Shown here: piece after piece, positions 5,315 through 44,558 of the stretch
How the letters are laid out: every line of letters starts with the position of its first letter
Position numbering within the stretch: the stretch's first letter is position 1
The notes under the pieces: generated by a model
What the model was told of the DNA's origin: nothing
The model's database searches: none
The model's input: only the letters and a program-made list of their open reading frames with translations
Program-made: the position numbers and the translations under genes
Assembly: GCA_017420535.1 (NCBI GenBank)
Contig: JAFOIV010000026.1
Location: 1 to 52,240, forward strand
Length of the DNA: 52,240 nucleotides
Reading direction: 5' to 3'
DNA from: Eubacterium sp.
Lineage (GTDB): Bacteria; Bacillota; Clostridia; Lachnospirales; Lachnospiraceae

Positions 5315-5470
5315 ATGAAAATAAAATTGTTTAACCTTCTATTAAGATCCATTGCGGGAAGGGTTTGAATAATTAAACTTGTGACAAAAAAATACTCATT
5401 TAGTTGCAAGTAAAAGTTGGTGATCTCTCAGGATGTTGCACCTGGGATATGCCAAAAGGAGGTAATTTAT

Positions 5471-27425: not shown

Positions 27426-27480
27426 CGTAGATATCGAGCCGCCAGGCGAGATGCAAATTATATATATGGAGGAATTTAAA

Positions 27481-28536: not shown

Positions 28537-28550
28537 TAAGTGGAGGGAAA

Positions 28551-29513
28551 ATGAAAAGAAAGTTAATATCAATACTTAAACTGATATTTCCTTTTGTGGT
28601 AATAGCACTTTCGTTTCTTGTTTATTACAAGGTAGCGGATAACGGTAAGCAAAAGATAACTAAGCATCCTTATTATCTTTATTTCATTGTTGCTATTGGA
28701 ATAGTGATCCTTATTGAGATAATTATAGGAGTCTTTATTAGAAGTATCAGAGAAAAGATTTTATATAAAGCACCGCTTTTAAGCGGAATCATAATTTTTT
28801 TACTGTTATTAAATTATATAATTACTAAAACAACCTTATTGCCTACATTATATTTTCCATCCTTAGACAGGGTGATAGGACTAATAGTAGAGCAAAGAGT
28901 GTTCCTTATAAGTAATGTGTTAGATTCATTTAAGCTGCTTATATCAGGCTTTTTATGGGGAGCAACAGTAGGATTTTTAACAGGACTTGCCCTTGGTTAT
29001 TTTAAGAAAGTAGGTTATTGGCTTAATCCTGTAACTAAGGTTATAGGACCAATACCAACAACCGCCTGGATACCGCTTGTTTTATCAACATTTCCAACTA
29101 CACAGAGCGCCAATATCTTTCTTATAGCTTTTGCGGTATGGTTCCCTGTTACTCTTATGACCAGCAGTGGTATTCAGAGTGTAAGTAATGTGAATTTTGA
29201 AGTATCAAGAACCTTGGGTGCTTCCACATTATATCAGATCTTACATGTAGCCATTCCTGCGGCGATGCCTAGCATTTTTCTTGGAGTATTCTATGGAACA
29301 GTATCTTCTTTTTCAACTTTAATGGCAGTTGAAATGAATGGTAACTCCAGTGGAATAGGCTGGTATATAAACTGGCAGAAATCAGTAATGATGTATGACG
29401 GAGTATATGCGGGACTTATAATCATTGCCACAATATGTTCTCTTACTCTTACTGTATTATTCAGAGTCAGGGACAAAGTTCTTATCTGGCAGAAGGGAGT
29501 GATCAAATGGTAG
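28551..29513 (+). CDS. ABC permease, NitT/TauT (SsuC) type
   Basis: 320 residues. Three extra N-terminal helices (about residues 8-110) precede the normal six-helix permease, which is about 60 residues longer than usual. The EAA-type loop reads EVSRTLGASTLYQILHVAIP. It forms the channel for the upstream binding protein. ATG follows GTGGAGGG; the 3' end overlaps the ATPase start by seven bases. Confidence 0.87.
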   Translation: MKRKLISILKLIFPFVVIALSFLVYYKVADNGKQKITKHPYYLYFIVAIGIVILIEIIIGVFIRSIREKILYKAPLLSGIIIFLLLLNYIITKTTLLPTLYFPSLDRVIGLIVEQRVFLISNVLDSFKLLISGFLWGATVGFLTGLALGYFKKVGYWLNPVTKVIGPIPTTAWIPLVLSTFPTTQSANIFLIAFAVWFPVTLMTSSGIQSVSNVNFEVSRTLGASTLYQILHVAIPAAMPSIFLGVFYGTVSSFSTLMAVEMNGNSSGIGWYINWQKSVMMYDGVYAGLIIIATICSLTLTVLFRVRDKVLIWQKGVIKW

Positions 29514-30292
29514 GAGAAATTAGTATTAAAAATGTCAGCAAGAAGTTTGAAGCGTTGGATTCTTCAAGAGAAGAAGTACTGGCCTTAAATGACTTTAACC
29601 TGAATATAAAACCAGGATCTTTCGTCAGCCTTATAGGTCCTTCGGGATGTGGTAAGTCGACTCTTTTAAGAATAATCGGAGGTCTTGAAACAGCAAGCAG
29701 CGGCAGCATATTTTTGGATGGAAAAGAGATAAAGAAACCTGGAAGTGACAGGGGGTTTGCATTCCAGGGATCAAATCTTTTTCCATGGCTTACAGTTGAA
29801 AAGAATATAGCCTTTGGTCTGAAGGCAAGACACATTTACAAGGAAAAAAAGCAGGATGTACAGGAGTATATAAAGCTGGTGGGACTTGAAGGCTTTGAAA
29901 AATCATATCCTCATCATCTGTCAGGAGGAATGCAGCAAAGAGTTTCTCTTGCAAGAGCTCTGGTGGGACATCCGGCAGTGCTGCTTTTAGATGAGCCTTT
30001 GGGAGCACTGGATGCTTTTACCAGGATCAATCTTCAGGATGAGATCTTAAGAATTTGGAAAACATATAATATGACAATGGTAATGGTAACTCATGATGTA
30101 GATGAGGCTATATACATGTCAGATCAGGTAGTGGTTATGGCCGCAAGACCTTCTAAAGTAAAGGCTGTGATAGATATTGATCTTCCTCGTCCAAGAGCAA
30201 GGGCACAGGATACTTTCCAGGAATACAGGACTAAGATCCTTAATGTGCTTGATATTGGCGGAAAGATAGATGAAGTAGAGTATTATCTATAG
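29507..30292 (+). CDS. ABC ATPase, NitT/TauT (SsuB) type
   Basis: 261 residues from ATG 29507, inside the end of the permease gene and after AGGGAG. Walker A GPSGCGKST, Q-loop FQGSNLFPWLTV typical of SsuB/TauB, signature LSGGMQQR, Walker B VLLLDEPLGALD, H-loop VTHDVDEA. It energises the importer. Confidence 0.9.
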   Translation: MVGEISIKNVSKKFEALDSSREEVLALNDFNLNIKPGSFVSLIGPSGCGKSTLLRIIGGLETASSGSIFLDGKEIKKPGSDRGFAFQGSNLFPWLTVEKNIAFGLKARHIYKEKKQDVQEYIKLVGLEGFEKSYPHHLSGGMQQRVSLARALVGHPAVLLLDEPLGALDAFTRINLQDEILRIWKTYNMTMVMVTHDVDEAIYMSDQVVVMAARPSKVKAVIDIDLPRPRARAQDTFQEYRTKILNVLDIGGKIDEVEYYL

Positions 30293-30353: not shown

Positions 30354-30788
30354 ATGAAAAACAGAGTAACAGTAGCAACTTTAAACGTTATCCTTGGAGC
30401 ATTTATTGCCCTTATACCATTTGTTTTATTTCCGGTATGCAACCATGATGAAAAGAGGATGGCTTGCTATTTCACGGGTAAGGCAGAAGTTGTGACAGGT
30501 ATAGCTGTAGCAGTTCTTGGTATCGTATATCTGGTTAGCAAATGCAAAGGAATAAGAATCGGTATTACAATTGCTGAAATTGTAAATGCTGTGGTAGTAA
30601 TATCATTTATCAAAGTTATCGGCCTTTGTAAGATGGCTACAATGGCTTGCCAGGTAAAGACTAAGCCGGCTCTTATTGTTGCTTCTATAATTCTTTTAGT
30701 AGTACAGATAGCAAATCTTGTAGTTTTATCAAAAGGACATAATGATGAAAAAAACAGTGAAATACATAGTAAAGAGGATAAAGAGTAA
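30354..30788 (+). CDS. DUF4418 family membrane protein
   Basis: 144 residues with four hydrophobic segments. The pattern PVCNHDEKRMACYFTGKAEV after the first helix, with a second pair of cysteines (LCKMATMAC) after the third, is the DUF4418 hallmark. The cysteines next to Met/His could bind a metal or heme; this is not proven. It follows the NitT/TauT importer and overlaps the next permease gene by 47 bases, so it is tied to that transporter. ATG follows AAGGAGAC. Confidence 0.78.
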   Translation: MKNRVTVATLNVILGAFIALIPFVLFPVCNHDEKRMACYFTGKAEVVTGIAVAVLGIVYLVSKCKGIRIGITIAEIVNAVVVISFIKVIGLCKMATMACQVKTKPALIVASIILLVVQIANLVVLSKGHNDEKNSEIHSKEDKE

Positions 30789-31944
30789 TAAGAAAGATGC
30801 GCTTATACTTGGCTTTTTAGCAATCATTTTCAGCTTAACTTTATTTGCCGGAATCCTGGTTAGTTACAGCTTAAAAAAAGGAATTGATAATACTGCAAAA
30901 AGATTAGGAGCTGACGTAATGTTAGTTCCTAAGGGAGCCAAGGAAAATGCAGAAAATCTGATGCTGACAGGCCAGAGAAGTACATTTTACTTTGAAAATG
31001 AGAACTATGAAAAGTTAAAAGATATCTCAGGCATAAAGGAAATAACAGCTCAGTGTTTTCTTAAATCCCTTTCGGCAGACTGCTGTGCAGCAGAAGTTGA
31101 GATAGTATTCTTTGATAAAGATACAGATTTTATAATCAGTCCATGGATTGAAAATAAATATAAAGACAAACTGGGTAAAAATGAAGTGATAGTAGGTTAT
31201 GGAATTAGTCTGGAAGATAATTCCATAAAACTTTTTGGGGATGAATATAAGGTTGTGGCCCAGATGGCAAAGACCGGTACAAGCCTTGATAATTCAGTTT
31301 ATTTTTCTTCGGAATCTAAAAAAGAACTTGTTCTAAAGGCCCTGGAGAAGGGATCATTTTTAACGGAGGAACAAAAAAAGGAGGATCTTATTTCCTCTAT
31401 TTTTTTCAATGTTGATGATAAAAGCAGCGTAAGTGAGATACTAAAGGAATGCCATAAAAGAATAGGAGATTCATTTGATATTGTATATCCTAAAGAGTTA
31501 AATGAATCTTTTATTGAGAATCTTGGAATCATAAAAAAGATTATTGAAAATTCTGGCATTATAGGAGGGGGCTTACTGTTTTTATTATTACTTGTCACAG
31601 AACATCTTTCTATCTGGAAAAGAAGAAAAGAAGTGGCACTTATGAGGATACTGGGGAATAAAAAGAAAAGTATCATAAAAGCAATGCTTGGCGAAAATTT
31701 GATAGTGGGACTTACTGGAGGGCTGATAGGGATTTTTATTGGAAGTCTGATACTTATTCCTTTTAGCAACTGGCTGGGAATCCTTCTTAAGATGCCGTAT
31801 TTAGGACCAGGTCTTTTGGAATATCTGATCATTATAGTTGTGATACTTATCGTTATATCTCTGGTTATATGTTTTACATCAATTTTATCTATTCTTTCTG
31901 TTGTAAAACTAGAACCATATCAGGCACTAAGGAGGGAAGCTTAA
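30742..31944 (+). CDS. FtsX-like ABC permease linked to DUF4418
   Basis: 400 residues. One helix at residues 20-41, an extracytoplasmic domain of about 230 residues that begins GADVMLVPKGAKENAENLML, then three C-terminal helices with the FtsX loop KEVALMRILGNKKKSIIKAM. This is the MacB-like single-module permease. The start lies inside the DUF4418 gene, after AAAAGGA. With the ATPase that follows by one base it makes a complete transporter, probably moving a compound out of the membrane rather than importing a solute. The substrate is unknown. Confidence 0.8.
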   Translation: MMKKTVKYIVKRIKSNKKDALILGFLAIIFSLTLFAGILVSYSLKKGIDNTAKRLGADVMLVPKGAKENAENLMLTGQRSTFYFENENYEKLKDISGIKEITAQCFLKSLSADCCAAEVEIVFFDKDTDFIISPWIENKYKDKLGKNEVIVGYGISLEDNSIKLFGDEYKVVAQMAKTGTSLDNSVYFSSESKKELVLKALEKGSFLTEEQKKEDLISSIFFNVDDKSSVSEILKECHKRIGDSFDIVYPKELNESFIENLGIIKKIIENSGIIGGGLLFLLLLVTEHLSIWKRRKEVALMRILGNKKKSIIKAMLGENLIVGLTGGLIGIFIGSLILIPFSNWLGILLKMPYLGPGLLEYLIIIVVILIVISLVICFTSILSILSVVKLEPYQALRREA

Positions 31945-32583
31945 ATGATACTTAAAGCAGACCATATAAATAAAAGTTTTGGAAAAAGAACTGTATTATT
32001 GGACCTTAGTTATGAGTTTTCAAAAGGAAAGATTTATGTTGTAAGGGGAGAATCTGGTGCAGGAAAGAGCACTTTACTTGCAATCCTGGCGGGGTTTTTA
32101 AGGCCTGATGGGGGAGATGTATTTTTTAAAGGGGTGGACATATTCGGTTTAAAAGATGAGGAATATTATAAGATCCATCAAAAAGAAGGTTATGTTCCCC
32201 AAAGCAATATTCTAATGAAGAATCTTACGGTTTTAGAAAACATAACGGTTCCGTTTTTATTAGAAGAAGATAAGGATGAGGAATATTTAAATGAAACAGC
32301 AATCTCTTATCTGGAAAGATTGGGAATATCAGATTTAAAAGATAAATATCCATATGAAATCTCTGGAGGAGAGTCAAAAAGAGTATCTATAATAAGGGCC
32401 CTTCTTAATGAGCCGGAAATCCTTATATTAGATGAACCTACTACAGGACTTGATAAAAAAACTGGAAAGATAATTCTTGATTTTATTGATGAATATGTAA
32501 AAAAAGGTAATACAGCCATAATAGCCAGTCATGATGATTTGATTGAAAACTATGGCGGGGAGACCATTACTCTGGGGAAATGA
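31945..32583 (+). CDS. ABC ATPase partner of FtsX permease
   Basis: 212 residues. Walker A GESGAGKST, signature ISGGESKR, Walker B ILILDEPTTGLD, H-loop ASHD. The ATG follows the permease stop directly (TAAATG), with GGGAAG before it. The signature with ESKR instead of QQQR is typical of this LolD-like group. It ends the transporter operon. Confidence 0.88.
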   Translation: MILKADHINKSFGKRTVLLDLSYEFSKGKIYVVRGESGAGKSTLLAILAGFLRPDGGDVFFKGVDIFGLKDEEYYKIHQKEGYVPQSNILMKNLTVLENITVPFLLEEDKDEEYLNETAISYLERLGISDLKDKYPYEISGGESKRVSIIRALLNEPEILILDEPTTGLDKKTGKIILDFIDEYVKKGNTAIIASHDDLIENYGGETITLGK

Positions 32584-32714: not shown

Positions 32715-33650
32715 ATGAGTGAAATCAAACAGAGTGCATTAGAGTTAATCGGAGGAACACCAATCTTACAGTTAAATGGTTATTCAAAGAAGAGAGAGAT
32801 TACTGAAGCAACAGTTCTTGCGAAACTTGAATACTTAAATCCTGCTGGATCAGTTAAAGATAGAGTTGCTCTTGCAATGATCGAAGATGCAGAAGCAAAG
32901 GGATTATTAAAGCCGGGGGCTACAATAATCGAGCCAACAAGTGGTAATACAGGTATAGGACTTGCAGCTGTAGCAGCAGCAAAGGGATATAAGGCAATAC
33001 TTACTCTTCCTGATACCATGAGCGTAGAAAGAAGAAATCTCTTAAAAGCTTATGGCGCTGAGATCGTTCTTACAGAAGGTGCTAAGGGTATGAAGGGAGC
33101 AATTTCTAAGGCTGAAGAGCTTAACAAAGAAATCCCTGGTTCAATCATCCTTGGACAGTTCATCAATCAGGCAAATCCAAAGGCTCATAGAGAAACAACA
33201 GGACCAGAAATCTGGAAGCAGACAGAAGGAAAGGTTGATATCTTTGTTGCAGGTGTTGGAACAGGTGGAACAGTTACAGGTGTTGGAGAATACTTAAAAG
33301 AGCAGAATCCAAATGTTAAGATTGTAGCAGTTGAGCCAGCAACAAGCCCTGTTCTTTCAACAGGAAATGCAGGACCTCATAAGATTCAGGGAATCGGTGC
33401 AGGATTTGTTCCGGAAGTATTAAATACAAAGGTGTATGATGAAATCATCACAATCGAAAATGAAGATGCATTTGCAGAAGGAAAAGCATTTGCAGTATCA
33501 GAAGGTATCTTAGTAGGTATTTCATCAGGTGCCGCTCTTAAGGCTGCTGAGATCTTAGCTAAGAGACCAGAGAATAAGGGAAAGGTAATCGTTGCATTGC
33601 TTCCTGATTCAGGAGATCGTTATCTTTCAACTCCTTTATTTAACTCATAA
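32715..33650 (+). CDS. cysK: Cysteine synthase (O-acetylserine sulfhydrylase)
   Basis: 311 residues, the usual length. PLP lysine K48 in NPAGSVKDR, substrate loop [11 protein letters not shown] (about 74-84), glycine-rich phosphate loop [12 protein letters not shown] and C-terminal [13 protein letters not shown]. It makes cysteine from O-acetylserine and sulfide. ATG follows CAGGAGGAAG. It is followed by the YezD gene and, after a terminator, by the nitrogenase-like operon. It matches canonical CysK more closely than the paralogue at 36269. Confidence 0.92.
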
Positions 33651-33702
33651 TCTAGAATGATGGCTTGTATTATCACATGTGATATTAAAAGGAGTGATAT
33701 TT

Positions 33703-33840
33703 TTGTCAGATAATAATAAAGAAAAATATCTGGAGCTTATTTCTAAATATGTAAAAGAACTAAAGTATGGAAACATAGTTCTTGTGATACAGGATGGAAA
33801 AGTAATCCAGATAGATAAAACTGAAAAAATACGATTATAA
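33703..33840 (+). CDS. yezD: YezD family (DUF2292) small protein
   Basis: 45 residues, TTG start 33703 after AAAAGGAG (33687-33694). The C-terminal segment KYGNIVLVIQDGKVIQIDKT ends EKIRL, the signature of DUF2292/YezD proteins, where a short helix is followed by a two-strand beta hairpin. Such proteins are commonly encoded beside sulfate, sulfonate or cysteine genes; their biochemical role is not established. Here it follows cysK by 52 bases, in the same transcript, and is closed by the hairpin at 33854. The non-ATG start is clear from the ribosome site. Confidence 0.85.
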   Translation: MSDNNKEKYLELISKYVKELKYGNIVLVIQDGKVIQIDKTEKIRL

Positions 33841-33853
33841 ACTGACTGGAAAG

Positions 33854-33920
33854 ACCAGAGGTTTTTGCGAAGAAAAAGACAAACACTTAAATGCTTTGCA
33901 TAGACCTCTGGTATTTTTGT
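33854..33920 (+). terminator. Long two-part terminator after cysK-yezD
   Basis: ACCAGAGGTTT pairs with its partner ending at 33912 (11 bp with one G-U), and an inner stem TGCGAAG (33866-33872) / CTTTGCA (33894-33900) extends it; ATTTTTGT follows. It shares the ACTGACTGGAAA(R)ACCAGAGG opening with the terminator at 27388. Confidence 0.7.
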
Positions 33921-33922
33921 CT

Positions 33923-33992
33923 GATGCTGTAGCCGCTGGTAGGGCATAGGTTCGCAAAACCGAAGTTGGTGGTTCGAATCCGCCCAGTATCG
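33923..33992 (+). tRNA. Degenerate tRNA-Cys-like sequence (anticodon GCA)
   Basis: A 70-base cloverleaf can be drawn. Acceptor GATGCTG (33923-33929) pairs with CAGTATC (33985-33991), one G-U. The D stem GCC/GGC has a GG-containing loop. The anticodon arm (33947-33963) has one A-G mismatch and loop TCGCAAA, which puts GCA (Cys) at the anticodon. The T arm GGTGG/CCGCC has the classic loop TTCGAAT. The discriminator is G and no CCA is encoded. Departures from a normal tRNA are a 3-bp D stem, missing A14, C instead of U33 and the mismatch. It may be a tRNA-Cys relic, a tRNA-like regulatory element, or an unusual functional tRNA. It lies 91 bases before the nifB start. Confidence 0.5.
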
Positions 33993-34000
33993 TTTTATTA

Positions 34001-34064
34001 GTAACTAACTTACTTTACATAGTTTAAGTTAGACTTGGTAACTAACTCACTTTTTGTAGTTTAA
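34001..34064 (+). promoter_or_regulatory. Direct and inverted repeats before the nitrogenase-like operon
   Basis: Two 27-base direct repeats (34001-34027 and 34038-34064) begin GTAACTAACTYACTTT and end TAGTTTAA, 37 bases apart. Overlapping the first is a perfect 8-bp inverted repeat CTAACTTA (34005-34012) / TAAGTTAG (34025-34032). Repeat spacing near 3.5 helical turns suggests cooperative protein binding. I could not settle a convincing -35/-10 pair. The operator role is inference. Confidence 0.45.
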
Positions 34065-34083
34065 TATGAAAGAAGGAATTTCT

Positions 34084-34956
34084 ATGAGTAACACATACAA
34101 AGATCTTCAGAACTCACATCCCTGCTTCGGGGGACATAGAAATAATGCAGGTAGGATACATCTTCCTGTAAGTCCAGGATGCAATATAGCATGTCGTTTT
34201 TGCGACAGAAGTATAAATGATGTAGAAGAAAGACCGGGCGTTACATCTAAAGTGATAAAACCGGAAGAATCAGTAGAAATATTAAATAAGGCATTGGAAA
34301 TATGTCCAGATATCAAAGTTGCCGGAATCGCCGGCCCTGGAGATACCCTTGCCAGTGATAATGCTTTAAACACTTTTAAGATCATAAAAGAAAAATTCCC
34401 AGATTTAATTAAATGCATGAGTACCAATGGTCTTCTGCTTAATGAAAGAGCAGAGGATGTAATAGAGGTGGGCATTGATTCCCTTACGGTTACGGTAAAT
34501 GCAGTTGATCCGGAAATTGAAAGTAAATTAAATGATTTCATTATCTATCATGGTAAAAAAATTGAAGGTGTAGAAGCAGCAAAGATTCTTATTGAAAACC
34601 AGTTAGCCGGTATAAGAAAAGTTGCTGCAGCAGGCATAACAGTAAAGGTAAATACAGTATTTGTTCCTGAGATAAATGGTGATCATATAGAAGAGATAGC
34701 ACGTACTGTTAAAGAAGCTGGTGCAAGTATCTATAACATAATACCACTTATACCTCAGCATAAATTAAAAGACTGCAAAGCTCCTACATGTTTAGAGATA
34801 GATGGAGTAAGAACAAAAGCATCAAAGTATATAGATGTCTTCAGACATTGTCAGCATTGCAGAGCTGATGCGGTTGGAGTTCCAGGCAAATCAGAATTTG
34901 GAGATCAGATTTATCAGAGAAGATTAAAGGTTAAGGAGACATTTTCTCATGGATAA
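34084..34956 (+). CDS. nifB: NifB-like radical SAM cofactor-assembly protein
   Basis: 290 residues from ATG 34084 after AGAAGGA; an in-frame ATG 18 bases earlier overlaps the ribosome site. NifB signatures are all present: HPCFGG at the N-terminus, radical SAM CNIACRFCDR (CxxxCxxC), ERPGV, AGPGD and the C-terminal CQHCRADAVG. It lacks the NifX-like C-terminal domain; a separate NifX-like gene overlaps its end by eight bases. NifB makes the Fe8S9C core (NifB-co) of nitrogenase cofactors, so its presence implies that the downstream NifD/K-like pair binds a complex iron-sulfur-carbide cluster. Confidence 0.9.
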   Translation: MSNTYKDLQNSHPCFGGHRNNAGRIHLPVSPGCNIACRFCDRSINDVEERPGVTSKVIKPEESVEILNKALEICPDIKVAGIAGPGDTLASDNALNTFKIIKEKFPDLIKCMSTNGLLLNERAEDVIEVGIDSLTVTVNAVDPEIESKLNDFIIYHGKKIEGVEAAKILIENQLAGIRKVAAAGITVKVNTVFVPEINGDHIEEIARTVKEAGASIYNIIPLIPQHKLKDCKAPTCLEIDGVRTKASKYIDVFRHCQHCRADAVGVPGKSEFGDQIYQRRLKVKETFSHG

Positions 34957-35305
34957 GGTAAAGGGAAGGATTGCTGTAGCATCCAGTGACGGTATTGTAG
35001 TAAACAGTCACTTTGGCAGAACTGCCAAGTTCTATATTTATGATGAATCTGATGAAAAATATGAATTTATAGAAGAAAGAGATGCCGATGTGGTTTGTGA
35101 TAAAGGAAACCACGATGAAAATTCTTTATTAAATAAGGTGAAAAGTATTGCTGATTGTGACTTCCTTTTGGTAAGTAAGATTGGCGACGGAGCCTTGAGA
35201 GTTGTTGAAGAATACGGGATTGAGGCATACGAAATACCTGGAATCATAGATGATTCCATCAAAAAATTAACCCAGTTTATTAAATTAAAAGATTTATTTT
35301 TATAG
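34949..35305 (+). CDS. NifX/NafY-like cofactor-binding protein
   Basis: 118 residues of the dinitrogenase iron-molybdenum cofactor family, with IAVASSDGIVVNSHFGRTAKFYIY at the N-terminus and a central phosphate-loop-like KIGDGALRVVEEYGIEAYEI. Its cysteines (C50 and C68) and H20 could hold the cofactor. It starts within the end of nifB, so the two act together: NifB makes the cluster, this protein probably carries it to the NifD/K-like pair. The length equals the NifX domain alone. Confidence 0.82.
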   Translation: MDKVKGRIAVASSDGIVVNSHFGRTAKFYIYDESDEKYEFIEERDADVVCDKGNHDENSLLNKVKSIADCDFLLVSKIGDGALRVVEEYGIEAYEIPGIIDDSIKKLTQFIKLKDLFL

Positions 35306-35317
35306 GAAGGAAACTAA

Positions 35318-36169
<852 letters not shown>

Positions 36170-36268
36170 TAAAAAACGCTTTATATAAAAGCAGATAATG
36201 TTACGTTAATTGACTGACTAGACAACTGGAGGTTAGTAAATCTTAAGATAAGAAAGGAAATAGAAATT

Positions 36269-37255
36269 ATGGGAAAAATAAATCAGTCAATCACAGAATT
36301 AGTAGGAAGAACACCATTACTTCAGTTAAATGGATATGAAAAAAAACATGATATAAATGCAAATATCATAGCTAAGCTTGAGTATTTTAATCCTAACCAG
36401 AGTGTTAAGGATCGTATAGCTCTGGCAATGATCGAGGATGCAGAATCAAAGGGACTTTTAAAACCTGGAGATACTATTGTTGAAACTACAAGTGGAAATA
36501 CAGGTATCGGACTTGCAGCAATTGCGGCATCAAAGGGATACCCTTTCAGAGTTTATATTCAGGATCAGGTAAGTGAGGAACGTTTCAAGGTTATAAGAGC
36601 CTTCGGTGGTGTTCCGATTAAACTTACAGAAGAGCCAACTATTGCTAAAACATTAAAGGAAACAAATGGTGATTTCGTTGCGGCAATTAAGAGCCTTAAG
36701 GAAGAAGTACTCAGCAAGGAAGAAAATGTATTCTTTGTTGATCAGTGCTCAAACCCGGCAAACCCAGCAGTTCATAAGAGAACTACAGGACCTGAGATCT
36801 GGGAGGATACAGATGGTAAGGTAGATATCTTGGTTGCAGCAGCAGGTACAGGTGGAACTATTTCAGGAACAGGAGCTTTCCTTAAGGAGAAAAATCCAAA
36901 TATTAAGATCGTTGGTGTTCAGCCAGGACCAAATTCTATTCCAAGTGATGATGTGCCACAGCCAGAACATGAAATAACAGGCGTACATCCATTTGTAGGG
37001 GTGCCAGATAATCTTATCCCATCAACACTGGATAGAAACATTTACGATGAATATGTAGCAGTTGAAGCTCTTGATGCATATGAAGCTGTTCGCGAAGTTG
37101 CAAAGACAGATGGAATACTTGTTGGTGAATCATCAGGTGCAGCACTTTTTGCAGCAAGACAGATCGCATCTAAGGAAGAAAATAAGGGAAAGAATATTGT
37201 TGTGATTTTCCCTGATACAGGACTCAGATATCTTTCAACAGGACTTTTTGATTAG
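36269..37255 (+). CDS. CysK-family PLP enzyme embedded in the nitrogenase-like operon
   Basis: 328 residues, with PLP lysine K47 in NPNQSVKDR and substrate loop [12 protein letters not shown] (the usual PTSGNTG has a TT change). Compared with the CysK at 32715 it carries extra residues in the segment after VYIQDQVSEERF (about residues 92-165) that shape the active-site entrance, and a long C-terminal loop TGVHPFVGVPDNLIPSTLD. It could be a cysteine synthase, a cystathionine beta-synthase or an S-alkylcysteine synthase that uses a thiol released by the neighbouring reductase. ATG follows AAAGGAAAT. It lies between nifH and nifD-like with only ten bases before the latter. Confidence 0.85.
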   Translation: MGKINQSITELVGRTPLLQLNGYEKKHDINANIIAKLEYFNPNQSVKDRIALAMIEDAESKGLLKPGDTIVETTSGNTGIGLAAIAASKGYPFRVYIQDQVSEERFKVIRAFGGVPIKLTEEPTIAKTLKETNGDFVAAIKSLKEEVLSKEENVFFVDQCSNPANPAVHKRTTGPEIWEDTDGKVDILVAAAGTGGTISGTGAFLKEKNPNIKIVGVQPGPNSIPSDDVPQPEHEITGVHPFVGVPDNLIPSTLDRNIYDEYVAVEALDAYEAVREVAKTDGILVGESSGAALFAARQIASKEENKGKNIVVIFPDTGLRYLSTGLFD

Positions 37256-37265
37256 GAGGACCTAA

Positions 37266-38732
37266 ATGGCTATTAATACTACAAGTTCTAATCTTGCAAC
37301 CAGAGAGAACAGAATTGGTTCAATTACAGGTTACGTTGGAACATTAAAAGACTTAGCAACACAGAGTGAGTGTGGAACATTAAAGGGATGTTCAAGATGC
37401 TTTTCCCAGTCCAGTACTTGTCTTTCAAGCTGCGGACTTGGACAGTTATCAGCAATCAGAGATGTAGCTGTAATTCATCATGGACCAGCTGGATGTTCTG
37501 TAGCCGGAGCCGGAGCTTATTACATGTCTCGTGTAATGGCAAAGAAGAGAGGCGTTACAAGTGATACTATTTACGTTGGAACAGATATGAATGAAAATGA
37601 TACCATTTTCGGTTCAACAGCTACCCTTCGTAACGTTATCCTTGAAGTAAATAAGAGATATAAGCCAAAGGCAATATTTGTATCAAGTTCCTGTGCGACA
37701 GGTATCATTGGTGAAGATATAGACAGTATAGTAGATGAAGTTCGCGATGAAGTTGGAGTTCCTATTGTTGCTGTTCATTGTGAAGGCTTTAAATCAAGAA
37801 TCTGGGCTACTGGATTTGATATTGCAGATCATGCGGTTCTTCAGTCTATCGTACAGCCTCCAAGAGAAGGGGTTAAGACTAATAAGATCAACTTCAAGAA
37901 TTTCTTTGAAAGTGCAAGACCAGAGATAATAGAGATTTTTAAGAGATTCGATCTTGAACCAGTTTTCCTTTACTGTAACTCGACAGTTGAAGAGCTTTCT
38001 CATATTTCTGAAAGCCTTGCAACTACTTGTATCTGCGGTACTTTAGGTAACTATTTAGGTAATGCCCTTGAAGAAAAATACAATGTACCATATGTAAGAA
38101 GTATTAATCAGTGTGGTATCAAAGGTTTTGAAACATGGCTCCGTGAGATTGGTAAGGTAACTAACAGAAGCGAAGCTGTTGAAAAGTATATTGAAGAACA
38201 AAGAGCAATCTATCTTCCACAGATTGAGGAAGTTAAGAAAGAATTAAAGGGACTTACTGCAGTTCTTGGAATGGGTCCTGGATATACATTTGAAGTATCA
38301 AGAGTTCTTGATGAACTTGGTATCAAGGTAGTTTGGGCTCTGGCTTGGCATTATGATAAGAAATATGAAAATGGAGATGTTCCTCCATCAATGAAATATC
38401 TTCTTGATAATGATATTGATTTTGAAGCCAGCGTTGCAGATCAGCAGAATTATGAGGTTATGAATATCCTCAATAAATATAAGCCGGATATGTACCTTTC
38501 ACGTCATCCTGGTTCAACAGTATGGGCGATCAAGAATGGTACACCAGCAATCTACGTAGCAGATGAATATATGATCTTTGGTTACAAGCATACACTTGAA
38601 TTTGCAAAGACTATTCTTGATGCGATTAAGAACAGAAGCTTTGAAGAGAATCTTGCTAAACGTTCAAAACTTCCATATACAGATTGGTGGTATAAGCAGG
38701 ATGTGGATAAATTCTTAGAGGAGGCAAAATAG
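37266..38732 (+). CDS. NifD-like catalytic subunit (nitrogenase-like alpha)
   Basis: 488 residues of the oxidoreductase/nitrogenase component 1 family. By eye alignment, P-cluster cysteines are C56 (SSCGLGQLS), C77 (HHGPAGCS) and C143 (SSSCATGIIGEDI). C257 (CICGTLGNYL before EEKYNVP) falls at the position of cofactor ligand Cys275 of NifD. The cofactor histidine His442 has no match at its place; the region reads NGTPAIYVADEYMIFGYKH. Four further cysteines (36, 42, 45, 52) crowd the N-terminus, which true NifD lacks. Probable reductive catalytic subunit, not a standard dinitrogenase. ATG follows AGGAGGACC. Confidence 0.87.
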   Translation: MAINTTSSNLATRENRIGSITGYVGTLKDLATQSECGTLKGCSRCFSQSSTCLSSCGLGQLSAIRDVAVIHHGPAGCSVAGAGAYYMSRVMAKKRGVTSDTIYVGTDMNENDTIFGSTATLRNVILEVNKRYKPKAIFVSSSCATGIIGEDIDSIVDEVRDEVGVPIVAVHCEGFKSRIWATGFDIADHAVLQSIVQPPREGVKTNKINFKNFFESARPEIIEIFKRFDLEPVFLYCNSTVEELSHISESLATTCICGTLGNYLGNALEEKYNVPYVRSINQCGIKGFETWLREIGKVTNRSEAVEKYIEEQRAIYLPQIEEVKKELKGLTAVLGMGPGYTFEVSRVLDELGIKVVWALAWHYDKKYENGDVPPSMKYLLDNDIDFEASVADQQNYEVMNILNKYKPDMYLSRHPGSTVWAIKNGTPAIYVADEYMIFGYKHTLEFAKTILDAIKNRSFEENLAKRSKLPYTDWWYKQDVDKFLEEAK

Positions 38733-38733
38733 G

Positions 38734-40032
38734 ATGGCAAAGCTATTAGATAAACAGAGATATAAATGTGCTCTTGGGGCAATGCAGACAGTTCAGGCTA
38801 TTACAAGAGCTCTGCCTATTCTTCATTCTGGTCCTGGTTGTGCACAGAAACTTTCAGAGTCAACTGGAAGTTCAGGTTATTTTTCACCCAATATCTTTCC
38901 TTGTACAAGTATCAATGAGAAAGATGTAGTATTCGGTGGAGTTAAGAAACTTAATTCAACAATAGAAAATGCTTTAAAGGTTATAGATGCAGATCTTTAT
39001 GTTGTTCTTACAGGCTGCATTCCTGAAATCGTAGGAGATGATTCAGGAGAAGTTGTATCAAGATTTGAAGATGCAGAAAAGCCTGTAATATATGCTCCAA
39101 CAGCCGGATTTAAAGGAAACAACTATAAGGGACATGAACAGGTTGTTGATGCCATAATCGATCAGTACTTAAAGAAGTCTGATAAGAAACAGAAAGGACT
39201 TGTTAATATCTGGGCAGATGTTCCATATCAGGATCTTTTCTGGTTAGGAAACATCAGAGAATTAGAAAAGTTAGTAAGTGAACTTGGTCTTACACCAAAT
39301 ACTATATTTGGTTATAAGAGAGGAATTGAAAATATCAATAAGATTCCTGAAGCAGAATTTAATCTTCTTGTTTCTCCTTGGGTAGGACTTGGAAATGTAA
39401 AGAAGCTGGAAAGAAAGTTTGGAACACCATATCTTCATTATCCAACTCTTCCAATAGGAGCAACAGAAACAAGCAAATTCCTTAGAGCTGTTGGTGAGTT
39501 CGCAGGAGTTGACAAGGATAAAGTAGAAGCTGTCATTAAGGAGCATGAGGATTACTATTATTATCTCATTGAAAGATATGCAGATCTTTTCCTTGAAAAT
39601 CGTGTTATCAATAAGCAGTTTACAGTTGTGGCAGATGCCCAGTATTCACTTGGAATCACAAAGTTCTTGGTAAATGATCTTGGACTTGTACCAGCTAAGC
39701 AGTTTGTAACAGATGATACACCAAAGAACTATAGAGATAAGATCATAGAAGAATTTAAGAATCTTAACTTCGGTTTAGAGGCTGAGGTTTCATTTGAAAC
39801 TGATGGTTATAAGATTCATGAAGAAATTAAGAATCATGATTATCATGGTTATCCACTTGTATTAGGTGGCTATTATGAAAAAGAGGTTACAGAGAGCCTT
39901 AAGGGTAATTTCCTTAATATTTCATGGCCAGTTCAGGATAAGGTGGTGCTTGATGACACTTATGTCGGATACTCAGGTGGTATAAGACTTATCGAAAATA
40001 TTTATACAGTTGCTGTATCAAGATTTAACTAG
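38734..40032 (+). CDS. NifK-like subunit (nitrogenase-like beta)
   Basis: 432 residues, shorter than true NifK (about 520) because the long N-terminal extension is absent. P-cluster cysteines C12 (KCALGAMQ), C36 (HSGPGCAQ) and C95 (LTGCIPEIVGDD) match NifK Cys70, Cys95 and Cys153. It completes a P-cluster with the NifD-like chain and shares its nitrogenase-fold layout. The gene starts one base after the nifD-like stop, after GAGGAGG, so equal amounts of both subunits are made. Confidence 0.87.
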   Translation: MAKLLDKQRYKCALGAMQTVQAITRALPILHSGPGCAQKLSESTGSSGYFSPNIFPCTSINEKDVVFGGVKKLNSTIENALKVIDADLYVVLTGCIPEIVGDDSGEVVSRFEDAEKPVIYAPTAGFKGNNYKGHEQVVDAIIDQYLKKSDKKQKGLVNIWADVPYQDLFWLGNIRELEKLVSELGLTPNTIFGYKRGIENINKIPEAEFNLLVSPWVGLGNVKKLERKFGTPYLHYPTLPIGATETSKFLRAVGEFAGVDKDKVEAVIKEHEDYYYYLIERYADLFLENRVINKQFTVVADAQYSLGITKFLVNDLGLVPAKQFVTDDTPKNYRDKIIEEFKNLNFGLEAEVSFETDGYKIHEEIKNHDYHGYPLVLGGYYEKEVTESLKGNFLNISWPVQDKVVLDDTYVGYSGGIRLIENIYTVAVSRFN

Positions 40033-40076
40033 TATAGCAGGTTAGTTGCTGTATCAATTATTAAGCAGTATGTTAG

Positions 40077-40109
40077 GGACAAAGGTTATATATGACTTTT
40101 GTCCTTTTT
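40077..40109 (+). terminator. Hairpin between nifK-like and the NifX-like gene
   Basis: GGACAAA (40077-40083) pairs with TTTGTCC (40098-40104), then TTTTT. Possibly a partial terminator that lowers expression of the downstream gene. Confidence 0.5.
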
Positions 40110-40128
40110 AAGAATAGAGAGGAAATTT

Positions 40129-40617
40129 ATGGCATATAAGATAGCAGTGGGATCATCCGATGAAGTTAAGGTTGATCTTAAATTTGGAGAAGTAGAGGAA
40201 TTTCTTATATATGAGATTGAAGGAAGAGAAGCTGGACTTGTAGAAAAAAGAAAGGTTTCTTCTTCAGACAGCAATTCCACTGGCAGCGGTGATGATAAGG
40301 CTGGTAGCGATGAGAATAAGGCTGGCAGCGGCGATGATCTGGGTTGTGGTGGAAACGGTAAGGGCTGCGGAGAAAATGCTCAGGGCTGCGGCGGAAATGG
40401 CCAGGGCTGCAGCGGTCCGAAAGATGTAACTGAAAAAATTGAAGTGATAAAGGATTGCAGAGCGGTGCTTTGTAAGAAAGTTGGATTTCAGGCACAAAAG
40501 CAGTTTGAAAAGAAGGCTATATCAGTGTTTGATATTGAATGCGACATTAAAGATGCACTTGATAAGATATCATTTTATTACGACAGGATTGATAAAAAAC
40601 AGTCACTTAGAAAATGA
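40129..40617 (+). CDS. NifX-like protein with Gly/Cys heptad linker
   Basis: 162 residues from ATG 40129 after AGAGGAAA. The two halves of a NifX-type (dinitrogenase iron-molybdenum cofactor) fold, IAVGSSDEVKVDLKFGEVEEFLIYEI and the C-terminal CRAVLCKKVGFQAQKQFEKK, are split by about 60 residues. That insert starts acidic and Ser/Gly-rich and ends with four cysteines exactly seven residues apart in CGxNxxG units. A poly-Gly/Cys segment of this sort could hold a metal or an iron-sulfur cluster close to the cofactor site. It lies after the nifK-like gene and is probably part of the same system. Confidence 0.78.
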   Translation: MAYKIAVGSSDEVKVDLKFGEVEEFLIYEIEGREAGLVEKRKVSSSDSNSTGSGDDKAGSDENKAGSGDDLGCGGNGKGCGENAQGCGGNGQGCSGPKDVTEKIEVIKDCRAVLCKKVGFQAQKQFEKKAISVFDIECDIKDALDKISFYYDRIDKKQSLRK

Positions 40618-41534: not shown

Positions 41535-42458
41535 ATGAGAAAAGGATTTTTAAAGAAATTTGTAGGACTTGCTGTTGCTGTATCACTTGTAGGAGCATCA
41601 CTTACAGGATGCGCAGGAAAGAACACTGTTAAGGACTCAGAAAATAAGCAGTCTTCATCAACAGCAGAAGAAAAGAAAGTTGAAAATAATACTGATGATA
41701 AAAAAGTATATAGAACTTTAGATGAGATAAAAGAAAGTGGAACCATAAACATTGGTGTATTTTCTGACAAGAGTCCATTTGGATATGTAAATGAAAATGG
41801 AGAATATGCAGGATATGACGTTTATCTTGCAGAGAGAATCGCTAAAGATCTGGATGTAAAGGTTAATTACGTATCAACAGAAGCTGCCAACAGAATTGAA
41901 TATCTTCAGACTGGAAAAGTAGATATTATTCTTGCAAACTTTACAGTAACTAAAGAAAGAGCAGAGGAAGTAGACTTTGCACTTCCATACATGAATGTAG
42001 CTTTAGGTGTCATTTCTCCTGATTCAAGAGTTATTAAATCTCTTGACGAAGTAACAAAGGATGATCAGATCATTGTTATTTCTGGTACAACTGCTGAGAC
42101 TTATCTTGAAAAGAATTATCCTGATATCAAGCTTCAGAAGTATGACGCTTATGCAGAAGCAAAGACAGCTTTTGAAAATGGAAATGCAGCAGCATGGGCA
42201 AATGACAACACAGAAGTTATTGCATTTTCACTTGAAAATAAAGGCTTCACAGTAGGTATTCCTTCACTGGGAGATGCTGATACTATCGCTCCAGCTGTAA
42301 CAAAGGGAAATGAGTCTCTCCTTAACTGGCTTAATGATGAGATCACTAATTTAGGAAATGAGAAGTTCTTCCATGCAGATTATGAAGCAACTCTTCTTGA
42401 TACATATGGCGCAGATTATGAAGATACACTTGTAGTAGAGGGTGGAAAGGTTCAGTAA
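41535..42458 (+). CDS. Amino-acid (probably cystine) ABC substrate-binding lipoprotein
   Basis: 307 residues of the family 3 solute-binding proteins. Lipobox LTGC with modified cysteine at residue 26, followed by a Ser/Lys/Glu linker. Family signatures: GTINIGVFSDKSPFGYVNENGEYAGYDVYLAERIA and FTVTKERAEEVDFALPYM. The arginine that holds the ligand carboxylate lies in the second. It is closest in form to cystine or polar amino-acid receptors, and the Cys leader upstream points to cyst(e)ine. First gene of a four-gene importer. Confidence 0.85.
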   Translation: MRKGFLKKFVGLAVAVSLVGASLTGCAGKNTVKDSENKQSSSTAEEKKVENNTDDKKVYRTLDEIKESGTINIGVFSDKSPFGYVNENGEYAGYDVYLAERIAKDLDVKVNYVSTEAANRIEYLQTGKVDIILANFTVTKERAEEVDFALPYMNVALGVISPDSRVIKSLDEVTKDDQIIVISGTTAETYLEKNYPDIKLQKYDAYAEAKTAFENGNAAAWANDNTEVIAFSLENKGFTVGIPSLGDADTIAPAVTKGNESLLNWLNDEITNLGNEKFFHADYEATLLDTYGADYEDTLVVEGGKVQ

Positions 42459-43117
42459 TGGATTTTGAGACTATAAAAGAATACCTGCCTAGATTTTATG
42501 AAGCGCTCCTGTTAACCCTTAAGATAGGCTGGTTGGGAATACTTCTTGCTTTCGTACTGGGAATCATAGGAGCCGCTATTATATATTTTAAAATTCCGAT
42601 AATAAGAAGGATAGTATCATTTTATATTGAATTATTCAGAAATACACCGCTTTTGGTTCAGTTATTTTTTATCTACTTTGCCCTTCCAAAGATTGGAATA
42701 AAAATAACAGCTGAAAAGTGTGGAATCATAGGACTTGGACTTTTGGGTGGAGCTTATATGATCGAAACTCTTAGAAGTGGTCTCGATGCTGTTGAAAAGG
42801 TTCAGTATGAAAGTGCTATGTCCCTTGGGATGACAAGGTTACAGGTATTCTTTTATATAATTCTGCCGCAGGCTTTCACAAGAAGTATCACAGGTCTTGT
42901 GGCAAATGTCATTTTCCTGCTGAAGGAAACATCGGTTTTTTCTACTATAAGCCTTATGGATCTGATGTTTACCGCTAAAGATCTTATAGGAATGTACGCA
43001 AAGACTATTGAATGTCTTTCACTGCTGGTTGTTTTTTATCTTATAATGCTGCTTCCTGTATCTATACTTGGAACTGTGATAGAAAGGAGAGCGAGATATG
43101 CAGAGTTTGGGGCTTGA
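42458..43117 (+). CDS. Amino-acid ABC permease 1
   Basis: 219 residues, HisM/GlnP type with five helices. The conserved ELFRNTPLLVQLFFIYFALP and EAA loop ESAMSLGMTRLQVFFYIILPQA are present. The start overlaps the binding-protein stop by one base (TAATG). It pairs with the next permease, which overlaps its end by 20 bases, to form a heteromeric channel. Confidence 0.88.
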   Translation: MDFETIKEYLPRFYEALLLTLKIGWLGILLAFVLGIIGAAIIYFKIPIIRRIVSFYIELFRNTPLLVQLFFIYFALPKIGIKITAEKCGIIGLGLLGGAYMIETLRSGLDAVEKVQYESAMSLGMTRLQVFFYIILPQAFTRSITGLVANVIFLLKETSVFSTISLMDLMFTAKDLIGMYAKTIECLSLLVVFYLIMLLPVSILGTVIERRARYAEFGA

Positions 43118-43772
43118 TGTTCTCTTTAAAGGAATTAATTTTATAAGATTATTAAAAGGTCTTTGGGTATCGGTGAGGATCAGTCTCATTTCCGTATCGA
43201 TCAGTATCGTTTTAGGACTTATATGCGGAGTGCTTATGACATCGAAAAGAAGGATCATAAGAGGCGTATTTCGTGTATATCTTGAGATAGTGAGGATTAT
43301 TCCTCAGATGGTGCTGCTTTTTATTGTTTATTTTGGAAGCACAAGAGCACTGAATATAAATATTACTGCTGAATTGTCAGCTATTATAGTTTTTGTTTTC
43401 TGGGGAACTATAGAAATGGGAGATCTTGTAAGAGGTGCCATTTCTTCAATCCCTAAGGTTCAATATGAATCTTCTTATGCTTTAGGCTTAAATAAATTTC
43501 AGGTTTATTTTTATATTATTCTGCCACAGACTTTAAGAAGGCTGATACCATTGTCTATTAATCTGGTAACCAGGATGGTAAAGACCACGTCACTGGTGCT
43601 TATGATAGGAATTGTGGAAGTATTTAAGGTGGCACAGCAGATAATTGAAGCCAATAGAAGAACGTCACCTAATGCAGCGTTTGGAATATTTGCAGTGGTT
43701 TTTTTGATGTATTTCCTGGTATGTTGGCCTATCAGTAAGCTAGCGAACCATTTAGAAAAGAAGTGGGCATGA
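43098..43772 (+). CDS. Amino-acid ABC permease 2
   Basis: 224 residues with five helices. The LEIVRIIPQMVLLFIVYFGS and ESSYALGLNKFQVYFYIILP motifs are of the HisQ/M type. It starts inside permease 1 after AAAGGAGAGCG. Two different permeases are normal for cystine and histidine importers. Confidence 0.88.
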   Translation: MQSLGLDVLFKGINFIRLLKGLWVSVRISLISVSISIVLGLICGVLMTSKRRIIRGVFRVYLEIVRIIPQMVLLFIVYFGSTRALNINITAELSAIIVFVFWGTIEMGDLVRGAISSIPKVQYESSYALGLNKFQVYFYIILPQTLRRLIPLSINLVTRMVKTTSLVLMIGIVEVFKVAQQIIEANRRTSPNAAFGIFAVVFLMYFLVCWPISKLANHLEKKWA

Positions 43773-43814
43773 AATCAGGATTGGCACACATTTAGAGAAA
43801 GGTTTTGAATTAAT

Positions 43815-44558
43815 ATGAGCAGTCTTGTTAAAGTTACGGATTTAAATAAAAAATACGGAGATAATACAGTATTAAATAATATCAACCTTTCTGTGGATAA
43901 AGGTGAAGTGGTTGTAATAATCGGCCCATCAGGATGTGGCAAAAGTACATTCCTTAGATGTCTCAATGGACTTGAAACTATAAACTCTGGATCAGTTGAA
44001 ATTGATGGGGAGAGAGTAGATCCGAGGGATAGAAGCATTTTCAAGTTAAGACAAAAAGTTGGAATGGTGTTTCAGTCCTATGAATTATTTCCTCATAAGA
44101 CTGTGCTGCAAAATATCATCCTGGCACCTATAAAGGTTCAAAAAAGAAAGAAGGATGAAGTAATAAAGGAGGCTTTGGAATTACTGAAAAAAGTAGGGCT
44201 TGAAGATAAAAAGGATTATTATCCAAGACAGCTGTCTGGCGGACAAAAGCAGAGAGTTGCCATTGTAAGGGCCCTTATAATGAATCCGGAAATACTACTT
44301 TTTGATGAGGTTACAGCGGCCCTTGATCCGGAAATGGTCCATGAAGTACTAGAAACTATGCTTAGTCTGGCGCGGGAAGGCTCAACCATGGTGATAGTGA
44401 CTCATGAGATGGCATTTGCAAAAGCAGTTGCAGACAGGATAGTATTTTTCGATAATGGTGACATTGTAGAAGAATCAAGGGATGTAAAACAGTTTTTCCA
44501 AAATCCATCCACTGAAAGAGCAAAGAAATTCCTAAGCACATTTACATACGAGGAATAA
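43815..44558 (+). CDS. Amino-acid ABC ATPase
   Basis: 247 residues. Walker A GPSGCGKST, signature LSGGQKQR, Walker B ILLFDEVTAALDPEMV typical of polar amino-acid ATPases, H-loop VTHEMAFA. It energises the importer encoded upstream. Repeat D lies just after its stop. The 42-base spacer before it has AGAAAGG as ribosome site. Confidence 0.9.
   Translation: MSSLVKVTDLNKKYGDNTVLNNINLSVDKGEVVVIIGPSGCGKSTFLRCLNGLETINSGSVEIDGERVDPRDRSIFKLRQKVGMVFQSYELFPHKTVLQNIILAPIKVQKRKKDEVIKEALELLKKVGLEDKKDYYPRQLSGGQKQRVAIVRALIMNPEILLFDEVTAALDPEMVHEVLETMLSLAREGSTMVIVTHEMAFAKAVADRIVFFDNGDIVEESRDVKQFFQNPSTERAKKFLSTFTYEE

Follow-up and report, generated by a model that had tools for sequence, protein, structure and literature searches.

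A cluster of nitrogenase-like genes lies among sulfur-metabolism genes on a single contig of 52,240 bases, hereafter the window, from a draft genome of Eubacterium sp., a member of the Lachnospiraceae (2.67 Mb, 98% complete). Its NifD- and NifK-like catalytic subunits, here called D1 and K1, are group-IV nitrogenase-like proteins as judged by their sequences. We put at roughly 70% the probability that they form a reductase of the methylthio-alkane reductase (Mar) type that serves sulfur supply, wherein an imported organosulfur compound would be cut reductively at a C-S bond and the product, putatively sulfide, captured by cysteine synthase (CysK). A Mar-kind sulfur-salvage reductase feeding CysK had also been put forward in the original prediction, made from the DNA letters without database searches. 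That proposal fits the homology matches of the pair, the Arg-His loop and cysteines of D1, the rejection of a grouping with NifD, the lack of a nifE match above cut-off, the cysK-type gene that commonly precedes D1, and the absence of matches to sulfite reductase or 3′-phosphoadenosine 5′-phosphosulfate (PAPS) reductase.

The closest solved relatives of both subunits are Mar proteins. Among structures in the PDB, D1 best matches Mar from Rhodospirillum rubrum (9fmg_A, E 1e-86), with nitrogenase alpha chains following at 7e-35 or weaker, while K1 best matches MarK (E 4e-114), the best NifK reaching only 4e-25. Sequence identity between D1 and MarD is 34%, and a fold search with an AlphaFold model of D1 places Mar at ranks 1-3 and nitrogenases next. 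This model has a mean predicted local distance difference test score (pLDDT) of 63.9 and is low at the active site, and its geometry was not used.

Residues at the predicted metal sites follow the Mar pattern. In Mar, Cys270 is a cofactor ligand and Arg428-His429 has been proposed as a possible hallmark (PMC12552129). The corresponding loop in D1 is R413-H414, which is kept in 21/21 D1 rows of our alignment; the cofactor cysteine is C257 and the P-cluster cysteines are C52, C77 and C143, the latter columns being read off NifD rows in the same alignment. Indeed, equivalents of MarD C66, C91, C158, C270, W195, F199, H375, R428 and H429 occur in all 21 D1-type rows and that of Q74 in 20 of them, and D1 keeps the equivalents of Cys62, Cys154 and Cys275. 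The positions of NifD Q191 and H195 are occupied by W180 and F184, as in Mar. Likewise, three K1 cysteines align with MarK cysteines, and we assign these as probable P-cluster ligands.

A tree of D-type proteins was computed from 69 rows, one mislabelled NifN row having been removed from 70; it holds no Isr, Nfa (NfaD) or heliobacterial reference sequences. The 21 D1 rows form a clade with support of 100/99, and D1 and MarD together form a superclade (100/98) outside of which stand NifD, NifE and a group labelled Isr-like because we recognised the published IsrD residue pattern (PMC11423573) in its three rows. Grouping D1 with NifD was rejected (p-AU 1e-6 in the approximately unbiased test, three NifD rows). 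The phylogeny check proposed with the original prediction, applied here to D-type proteins, places D1 in this superclade. A separate two-row clade (loci L153 and L154, D genes at 5376 and 4292) has Arg-Ala in place of Arg-His and adjoins nifB, nifH and an SsuABC-type importer; it is a possible further substrate class.

The same data bear on whether the system is methylthio-alkane reductase proper, which converts methylthioethers to methanethiol and a hydrocarbon, the methanethiol then yielding methionine. Mar is the closest solved relative of D1/K1 by sequence and fold, its Arg-His hallmark is kept in D1, and trees holding D1 and MarD as one clade give a p-AU of 0.072, above 0.05, although the best tree splits them. 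We nevertheless consider this identity unlikely, since D1 forms its own well-supported clade and MarD groups instead with two proteins of genome G278, which also has D1. One of these, L149_4902, is 58% identical to R. rubrum MarD, and the presence of D1 and a MarD-clade protein in one genome suggests that the two act on different substrates. Moreover, the positions of MarD C73 and H194 are changed in D1, and the dedicated neighbor of D1 is a cysK-type gene, whereas MetY-like genes are found at 3/9 loci of the Mar-like group with 36-40% identity.

The preferred reading, a Mar-type reductase coupled to cysteine synthesis, is also supported by this neighborhood. Locus counts rest on a scan of named genomes covering the best 80 of 557 relatives, which by record title comprise 62 Bacillota, 9 Bacteroidota and 9 Spirochaetota loci. 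A cysK-type gene lies immediately 5′ of D1 in 63 of the 77 loci that could be scored (3/80 were not), namely 49/59 in Firmicutes, 5/9 in Bacteroidota and 9/9 in Spirochaetota. Of these 63 genes, 46 are close to the CysK2 gene of the window, while 17 belong to a second type only 41-45% identical, and the occupation of one slot by two different paralogue types suggests that a cysteine-synthase-type step is needed there. In Bacteroidota, CysK2 is in the locus at 6/6 well-flanked loci although nifH is not near. Among 31 well-flanked Firmicutes loci, a close MetC relative lies within ~10 kb of D1 in 21, PatB is near D1 in 21 (and in 3/6 Bacteroidota loci), an SsuB-type ATPase relative in 15 and a relative of the FtsX-system ATPase in 9.

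Profile searches of the host genome yielded no match to sulfite reductase (PF01077) and none to PAPS reductase (PF01507), whereas the same search found PF01077 in 11/14 control genomes and PF01507 in 14/14. This comparison was extended to a family sample of 299 genomes, 70 of which contain a D1 match with an E value of at most 0.001, most of these matches being distant. From a list read by eye, full D1 at a threshold of at least 65% is present in 20/299, and partial copies are present in G151 and G221. The 20 genomes together with G221 are referred to as the 21 D1 genomes, and G151 is counted among the 278 others unless stated. Sulfite reductase PF01077 occurs in 3/21 D1 genomes versus 143/278 others (Fisher p 0.001), or in 4/22 (p 0.003) with G151 counted as a D1 genome; these p values are optimistic and serve only as a guide because the genomes are akin to one another. 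The lack of a sulfite reductase match here and the rarity of such matches in D1 genomes make sulfite an unlikely product of D1K1. Sulfide fits the cysK neighbors, and a small thiol is possible.

These observations also weigh on a rival reading in which D1K1 would be Isr-like, a reductase of isethionate or sulfonate type with sulfite as its product. Isr of Rhodobacter capsulatus (IsrBHDK) is likewise a group-IV enzyme for sulfur and works with the neighboring SsuABC (SsuCAB) importer (PMC11423573), which resembles the NitT/TauT-type importer upstream of D1. In that account, however, IsrD has one P-cluster cysteine, lacking the other two as well as the cofactor cysteine (Cys275) and His442, IsrB is a radical S-adenosylmethionine (SAM) protein not close to NifB, and sulfite release is proposed. 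None of this fits D1, which has the cysteines and whose cluster includes a protein that is close to NifB. Three Isr-like D rows from the same family make up a clade of their own, and the host genome has no sulfite reductase match with which to use sulfite. We therefore regard a sulfite-releasing enzyme as very improbable.

Nitrogen fixation by a group-IV nitrogenase that dispenses with NifEN, as proposed for Endomicrobium proavitum, has in its favor the presence of NifB, NifX and NifH, a NifH that passes the true-nifH cut-off (TIGR01287, 467 versus 394 bits), and the report of group-IV N2 fixation without NifEN (PMC9147875). The Nfa systems of E. proavitum and Heliophilum described there resemble the D1 system in comprising NifB, NifH and a DK pair without NifEN. 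Indeed, nifE scored above cut-off in 0/21 D1 genomes, in agreement with the absence of NifE noted in the original prediction; no nifN-specific model was applied. However, ligands required to reduce N2 are predicted to be retained in the E. proavitum protein (PMC9147875), whereas D1 has a Mar-type pocket and ligand loop, with NifD Q191 and H195 replaced by W180 and F184. In addition, the neighbors of D1 are sulfur genes and its grouping with NifD is rejected, albeit in a tree without NfaD. Nitrogen fixation thus appears highly unlikely.

Genes of the D1 type could easily be mistaken for nitrogen-fixation genes. As their NifH passes a curated cut-off, the bacteria that carry them will be scored as nitrogen fixers in surveys based on nifH. 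Lachnobacterium bovis and five Butyrivibrio strains each have a single NifH above 100 bits, which is of the D1-type kind; it lies beside D1 in 5/6 of these strains and on a different contig from D1 in AE3009. The exceptions in this ten-genome search are Ruminiclostridium hungatei (G303, the genome of locus L126), with seven NifH above 300 bits, and Konateibacter massiliensis, with three. A human gut NifH type of “cluster III” is 98% identical to that of Lachnospira multipara and 97% to that of Butyrivibrio, and the same paper cites a doubt over such bacteria because a NifD histidine is missing (PMC4995403). Since NifH of the D1-type system passes the true-nifH cut-off, some “nitrogen-fixation” signals from the gut may come from this system.

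The host genome encodes four PF00148 proteins in all, the other two, D2 and K2, forming a further nifDK-like pair (D2/K2) next to an importer of amino-acid type on contig 31 (L008:12073-14819). Only one NifH above 100 bits accompanies these two pairs. D2/K2 keep the cysteines but lack the Arg-His loop. At 72% identity or more, D2 occurs in 12/21 D1 genomes and 0/278 others, the latter figure being based on hits of the D1 query, not of a D2 query. The sharing of one NifH and this co-occurrence would suit a role of D1K1 mainly as a cofactor scaffold for D2K2 and not as a reductase. This arrangement is extremely unlikely given that D1 occurs without D2 in 9/21 genomes, and that the full ligand set is found in D1 and not in D2. 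In locus L183, D2 occupies the slot of D1 behind CysK2, and D2 is therefore probably another reductase, although D2/K2 may act as a scaffold.

Several observations weigh against a Mar-type reductase that feeds cysteine synthase. The pocket residues of MarD are not all kept, with C73 never Cys and H194 replaced by Ile or Val in 21/21 D1 rows. The tree has long branches, and program warnings flagged the residue make-up of MarD as odd. NifH stands directly before D1 at 9/77 loci, and another frame (4 loci, all Bacteroidota) or nothing (1 locus) at 5/77. Three of the 21 D1 genomes do carry sulfite reductase PF01077. Importers vary by locus between SsuABC-type and amino-acid-type, such that one substrate for all systems is not assured. 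Finally, 3/31 Firmicutes and 3/6 Spirochaetota loci have MetY-like genes near D1, which would be in keeping with a thiol as the product.

From gene content, homology, ligand residues, neighborhood and the lack of a sulfite reductase match, we infer the cluster type, substrate, product and flow as follows. NifB would make an [Fe8S9C]-type cluster, which the NifX-like proteins would carry to D1K1, where it would be held along with a P-cluster. NifH would supply electrons, with ATP. An organosulfur compound brought in by a neighboring importer would be cut reductively by D1K1 at its C-S bond, and the released sulfide (or possibly a small thiol) would be fixed at once by CysK2 and CysK1 to give cysteine. 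MetC and PatB enzymes could pass the sulfur on to homocysteine, and a tRNA-Cys-like element before nifB may regulate the operon.

Systems of this kind are already known. The Mar system of R. rubrum (MarBHDK; PDB 9fmg, 9d9u; PMC12552129) shares with the D1 system a nifB-like, nifH, nifD and nifK set, the ligand residues of the P-cluster and the [Fe8S9C] cluster, the Arg-His loop and a sulfur role, while the D1 locus adds an embedded cysK-type gene, NifX-like genes, importers and the tRNA-like element. In 2012 it was noted that nitrogenase-like sequences with a Cys275 equivalent commonly adjoin O-acetylhomoserine sulfhydrylase or cysteine synthase (PMC3464626), and the neighborhoods given for R. 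rubrum, Clostridium beijerinckii and Geobacter are of the same kind as the D1 locus. Mar-like pairs have been described in heliobacteria (PMC9147875), a nifK/nifD pair occurs with cysteine synthase in a termite-gut spirochete (PMC13067680), and group-IV genes have been reported alongside sulfur genes (PMC10418091). The suggestion in the original prediction of an undescribed Firmicute version with an embedded CysK is thus only partly upheld, in that adjacency to cysteine synthase had been recorded. What is added here is the D1 clade, its cysK slot, its spread across phyla in the gut and the tRNA-like element; the Mar-type loop, the cross-phylum gut and rumen clade and the tRNA-like element do not appear in the available portions of PMC3464626.

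The restriction to Firmicutes has also proved too narrow, as close relatives are present in Bacteroidota and Spirochaetota records. Three Bacteroidota D1 copies nest among Lachnospiraceae ones (seven rows, 100/99), which points to transfer, and the D1 system appears to have passed among Bacillota, Bacteroidota and Spirochaetota. Every one of the nine Bacteroidota loci comes from a metagenome bin, where mis-binning is possible, yet a gene order of their own recurs. Treponema sp. C6A8, which is not labelled as a bin, carries D1 at 85%. Plasmid pTS2 of Treponema saccharophilum (L147) encodes a 60% relative of D1 with MetY-type, cysK, NifB-like, NifX-like and nifH genes ~6-11 kb upstream, suggesting that a D1-type system can travel on a plasmid. 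The same plasmid region (L147:1386-20382) also holds a second DK pair with a Mar-type loop. The closest named record to the window, metagenome-assembled genome (MAG) UBA3772, has a D1 that is 100% identical among the matches listed. The D1 type would represent a lineage within the nitrogenase superfamily that scavenges sulfur and is common among bacteria of the rumen and gut.

The only tRNA found in the window by Rfam and ARAGORN is the tRNA-Cys-like element, which scores 42.2 bits, compared to 60.9 bits for a normal tRNA-Cys elsewhere in the genome. ARAGORN also reports tRNA-Cys in 26/60 other loci supplied. Twenty-four copies including that of the window were aligned after dropping L053, which is unlike the rest, and L074 and L083, which are copies of L067 and L048. 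In this alignment 95% of cells pair and both-side changes occur in 9/20 pairs, amounting to 35 such cells versus 9.7 +/- 2.5 in shuffles and 0-3 in slid versions; the copies were found by tRNA folding, which favors paired cells.

The element retains a complete cloverleaf, but the fold carries several departures from an ordinary tRNA-Cys. An A-G mismatch at 28:42 and an A or G at position 73 (with a 7-bp acceptor stem) are present in 33/33 copies, the GCA anticodon is present in 32/33, and position 33 is C in place of T in 5/33. To our knowledge, U33 is otherwise near-universal in tRNAs. The ARAGORN drawing for the window shows an 8-bp acceptor stem, but the extra pair is impossible in 12/33 copies and possible in 21/33, and the 7-bp stem was used; with eight pairs, the stem would be followed by T in 24 of the 33 copies, by C in eight and by G in one. 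Cysteinyl-tRNA synthetase (CysRS) has been described as recognising U73 and GCA (PMC7609411). U73 is borne by the other tRNA-Cys of the genome, and the element lacks it, departing in this base from a functional elongator tRNA-Cys. The selC* tRNA-Cys (PMC7609411) is likewise an additional tRNA-Cys of unusual form, found in anaerobes among which are Firmicutes, but its description there gives an 8/4 body, a variable arm of greater length and U73, whereas the element reads as a 7/5 body with a five-pair T-stem, a four-base variable loop and A/G73.

A model built from the 24 copies found the element at 90 bits or more in 13/299 genomes, the next score being 62.7 and all others lying at about 55 or below; strict filters and the scoring of 16 candidates per genome mean that the scan may have overlooked some copies. 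Of these 13 genomes, ten belong to the D1 set (Fisher p 7e-11). In the three without D1 (L211, L212, L213), the element precedes YezD or other genes, then SsuABC-type importers. The first gene after the element in G014 we take, by eye, to be MetK. Where nifB and 400 nt upstream are available, the element is present in 23/45 named Firmicutes loci and 0/6 Bacteroidota and Spirochaetota loci. At 21 of these 23 loci, 5-147 nt separate its end from the called nifB start downstream; at the remaining two, the element ends downstream of that start. The occurrence of the element at import operons of genomes without D1, along with its absence from the six loci of the other phyla, indicates by position that it belongs to the organosulfur operons of Bacillota and not to D1 as such.

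We tentatively suggest, at less than even odds, that the element is a dedicated non-translating tRNA-Cys mimic that would control organosulfur-acquisition operons, reading cysteine or tRNA-Cys status to switch on the C-S reductase. Such a mimic would sense by binding, for example, CysRS or a tRNA-processing enzyme. If the element is a regulator, it would represent a new way of reading cysteine supply, and no report of it was found in openly licensed literature. A stem of at least eight stacked pairs followed by a T run lies just before the element in 18/33 copies. The corresponding hairpin of the window is unlisted in a simple terminator scan, which allows loops of 3-8 only, and the promoter and terminator scan found no more than in shuffled sequence. 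No sulfur-specific Rfam riboswitch reached gathering scores in the window or seven other loci. A cysteine T-box was considered as a partner and rejected: the genome has five T-boxes, one below the gathering score, and none precedes a cysteine gene, the proteins 3′ of them being, by our recognition by eye, presumably LeuA, ThrS, PheS, AspS and TrpE. Between the element and nifB, the window holds two near-repeats of GTAACTAACT type (33993-34083), which are possible regulator sites.

Features of the sulfur-gene region of the window, with positions on the 52,240-base contig.
Feature	Position	Strand	Evidence
MetC/cystathionine gamma-type pyridoxal phosphate (PLP) enzyme (Cys/Met metabolism)	24217..25389	+	PF01053, 474 bits
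PatB-family C-S lyase	25433..26608	+	TIGR04350, 449 bits vs cut-off 340
NitT/TauT (SsuABC)-type importer: binding protein, permease, ATPase	27451..30292	+	PF09084, PF00528; ATPase named from sequence
DUF4418 protein, FtsX-type permease and its ATPase	30354..32583	+	PF14387, PF02687
CysK1, cysteine synthase A	32715..33650	+	TIGR01139, 449.5 bits vs cut-off 351
YezD/DUF2292 small protein	33703..33840	+	PF10055, E 1.7e-17; TTG start at 33703
Long hairpin then T run, terminator-like	33854..33912	+	Fold z-score -3.96 for 33841-33995
tRNA-Cys(GCA)-like element	33923..33992	+	Rfam tRNA 42.2 bits, ARAGORN; covariation; same place in relatives
NifB, radical-SAM domain only	34084..34956	+	TIGR01290 265 bits, PF04055
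NifX-like protein 1	34949..35305	+	PF02579, 71 bits
NifH-type iron protein	35321..36169	+	PF00142 436 bits; TIGR01287 467 bits
CysK2, divergent cysteine-synthase-type PLP enzyme	36269..37255	+	PF00291 236 bits; TIGR01136 332.8 vs cut-off 344 (below)
D1, NifD-like catalytic subunit with Mar-type Arg-His loop	37266..38732	+	PF00148, 238 bits
K1, NifK-like catalytic subunit	38734..40032	+	PF00148, 244 bits; best PDB match MarK, E 4e-114
NifX-like protein 2 with Cys/Gly-rich insert	40129..40617	+	PF02579
Polar amino-acid-type importer: family 3 binding protein, two permeases, ATPase	41535..44558	+	PF00497 for binding protein; rest named from sequence

All genes named in the original prediction between 32715 and 40617, namely those for NifB, two NifX-like proteins, NifH, the D- and K-like proteins, two CysK-type enzymes and YezD, are borne out as open and intact reading frames at their coordinates, and the profile matches of the window genes to their families are far above chance. 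The sulfur gene neighborhood extends back to ~24217, upstream of the range first given, and neither the tRNA-Cys-like element nor the D2/K2 pair on another contig was part of the original prediction. Downstream of the cluster, an acetyltransferase is also present besides the amino-acid-type importer, whose gene order is repeated in locus L060. The NifB match to TIGR01290 covers the radical-SAM part only and falls below the cut-off of 344. Its open reading frame extends from 34066, and we favor the ATG at 34084 as the probable start on account of a better ribosome site. That of NifX-like protein 2 is open from a TTG at 40099, while the conserved start is at 40129. The Cys/Gly-rich insert of this protein, which recurs in relatives, carries repeats of CGGNGxGC type and is perhaps a metal-cluster store.

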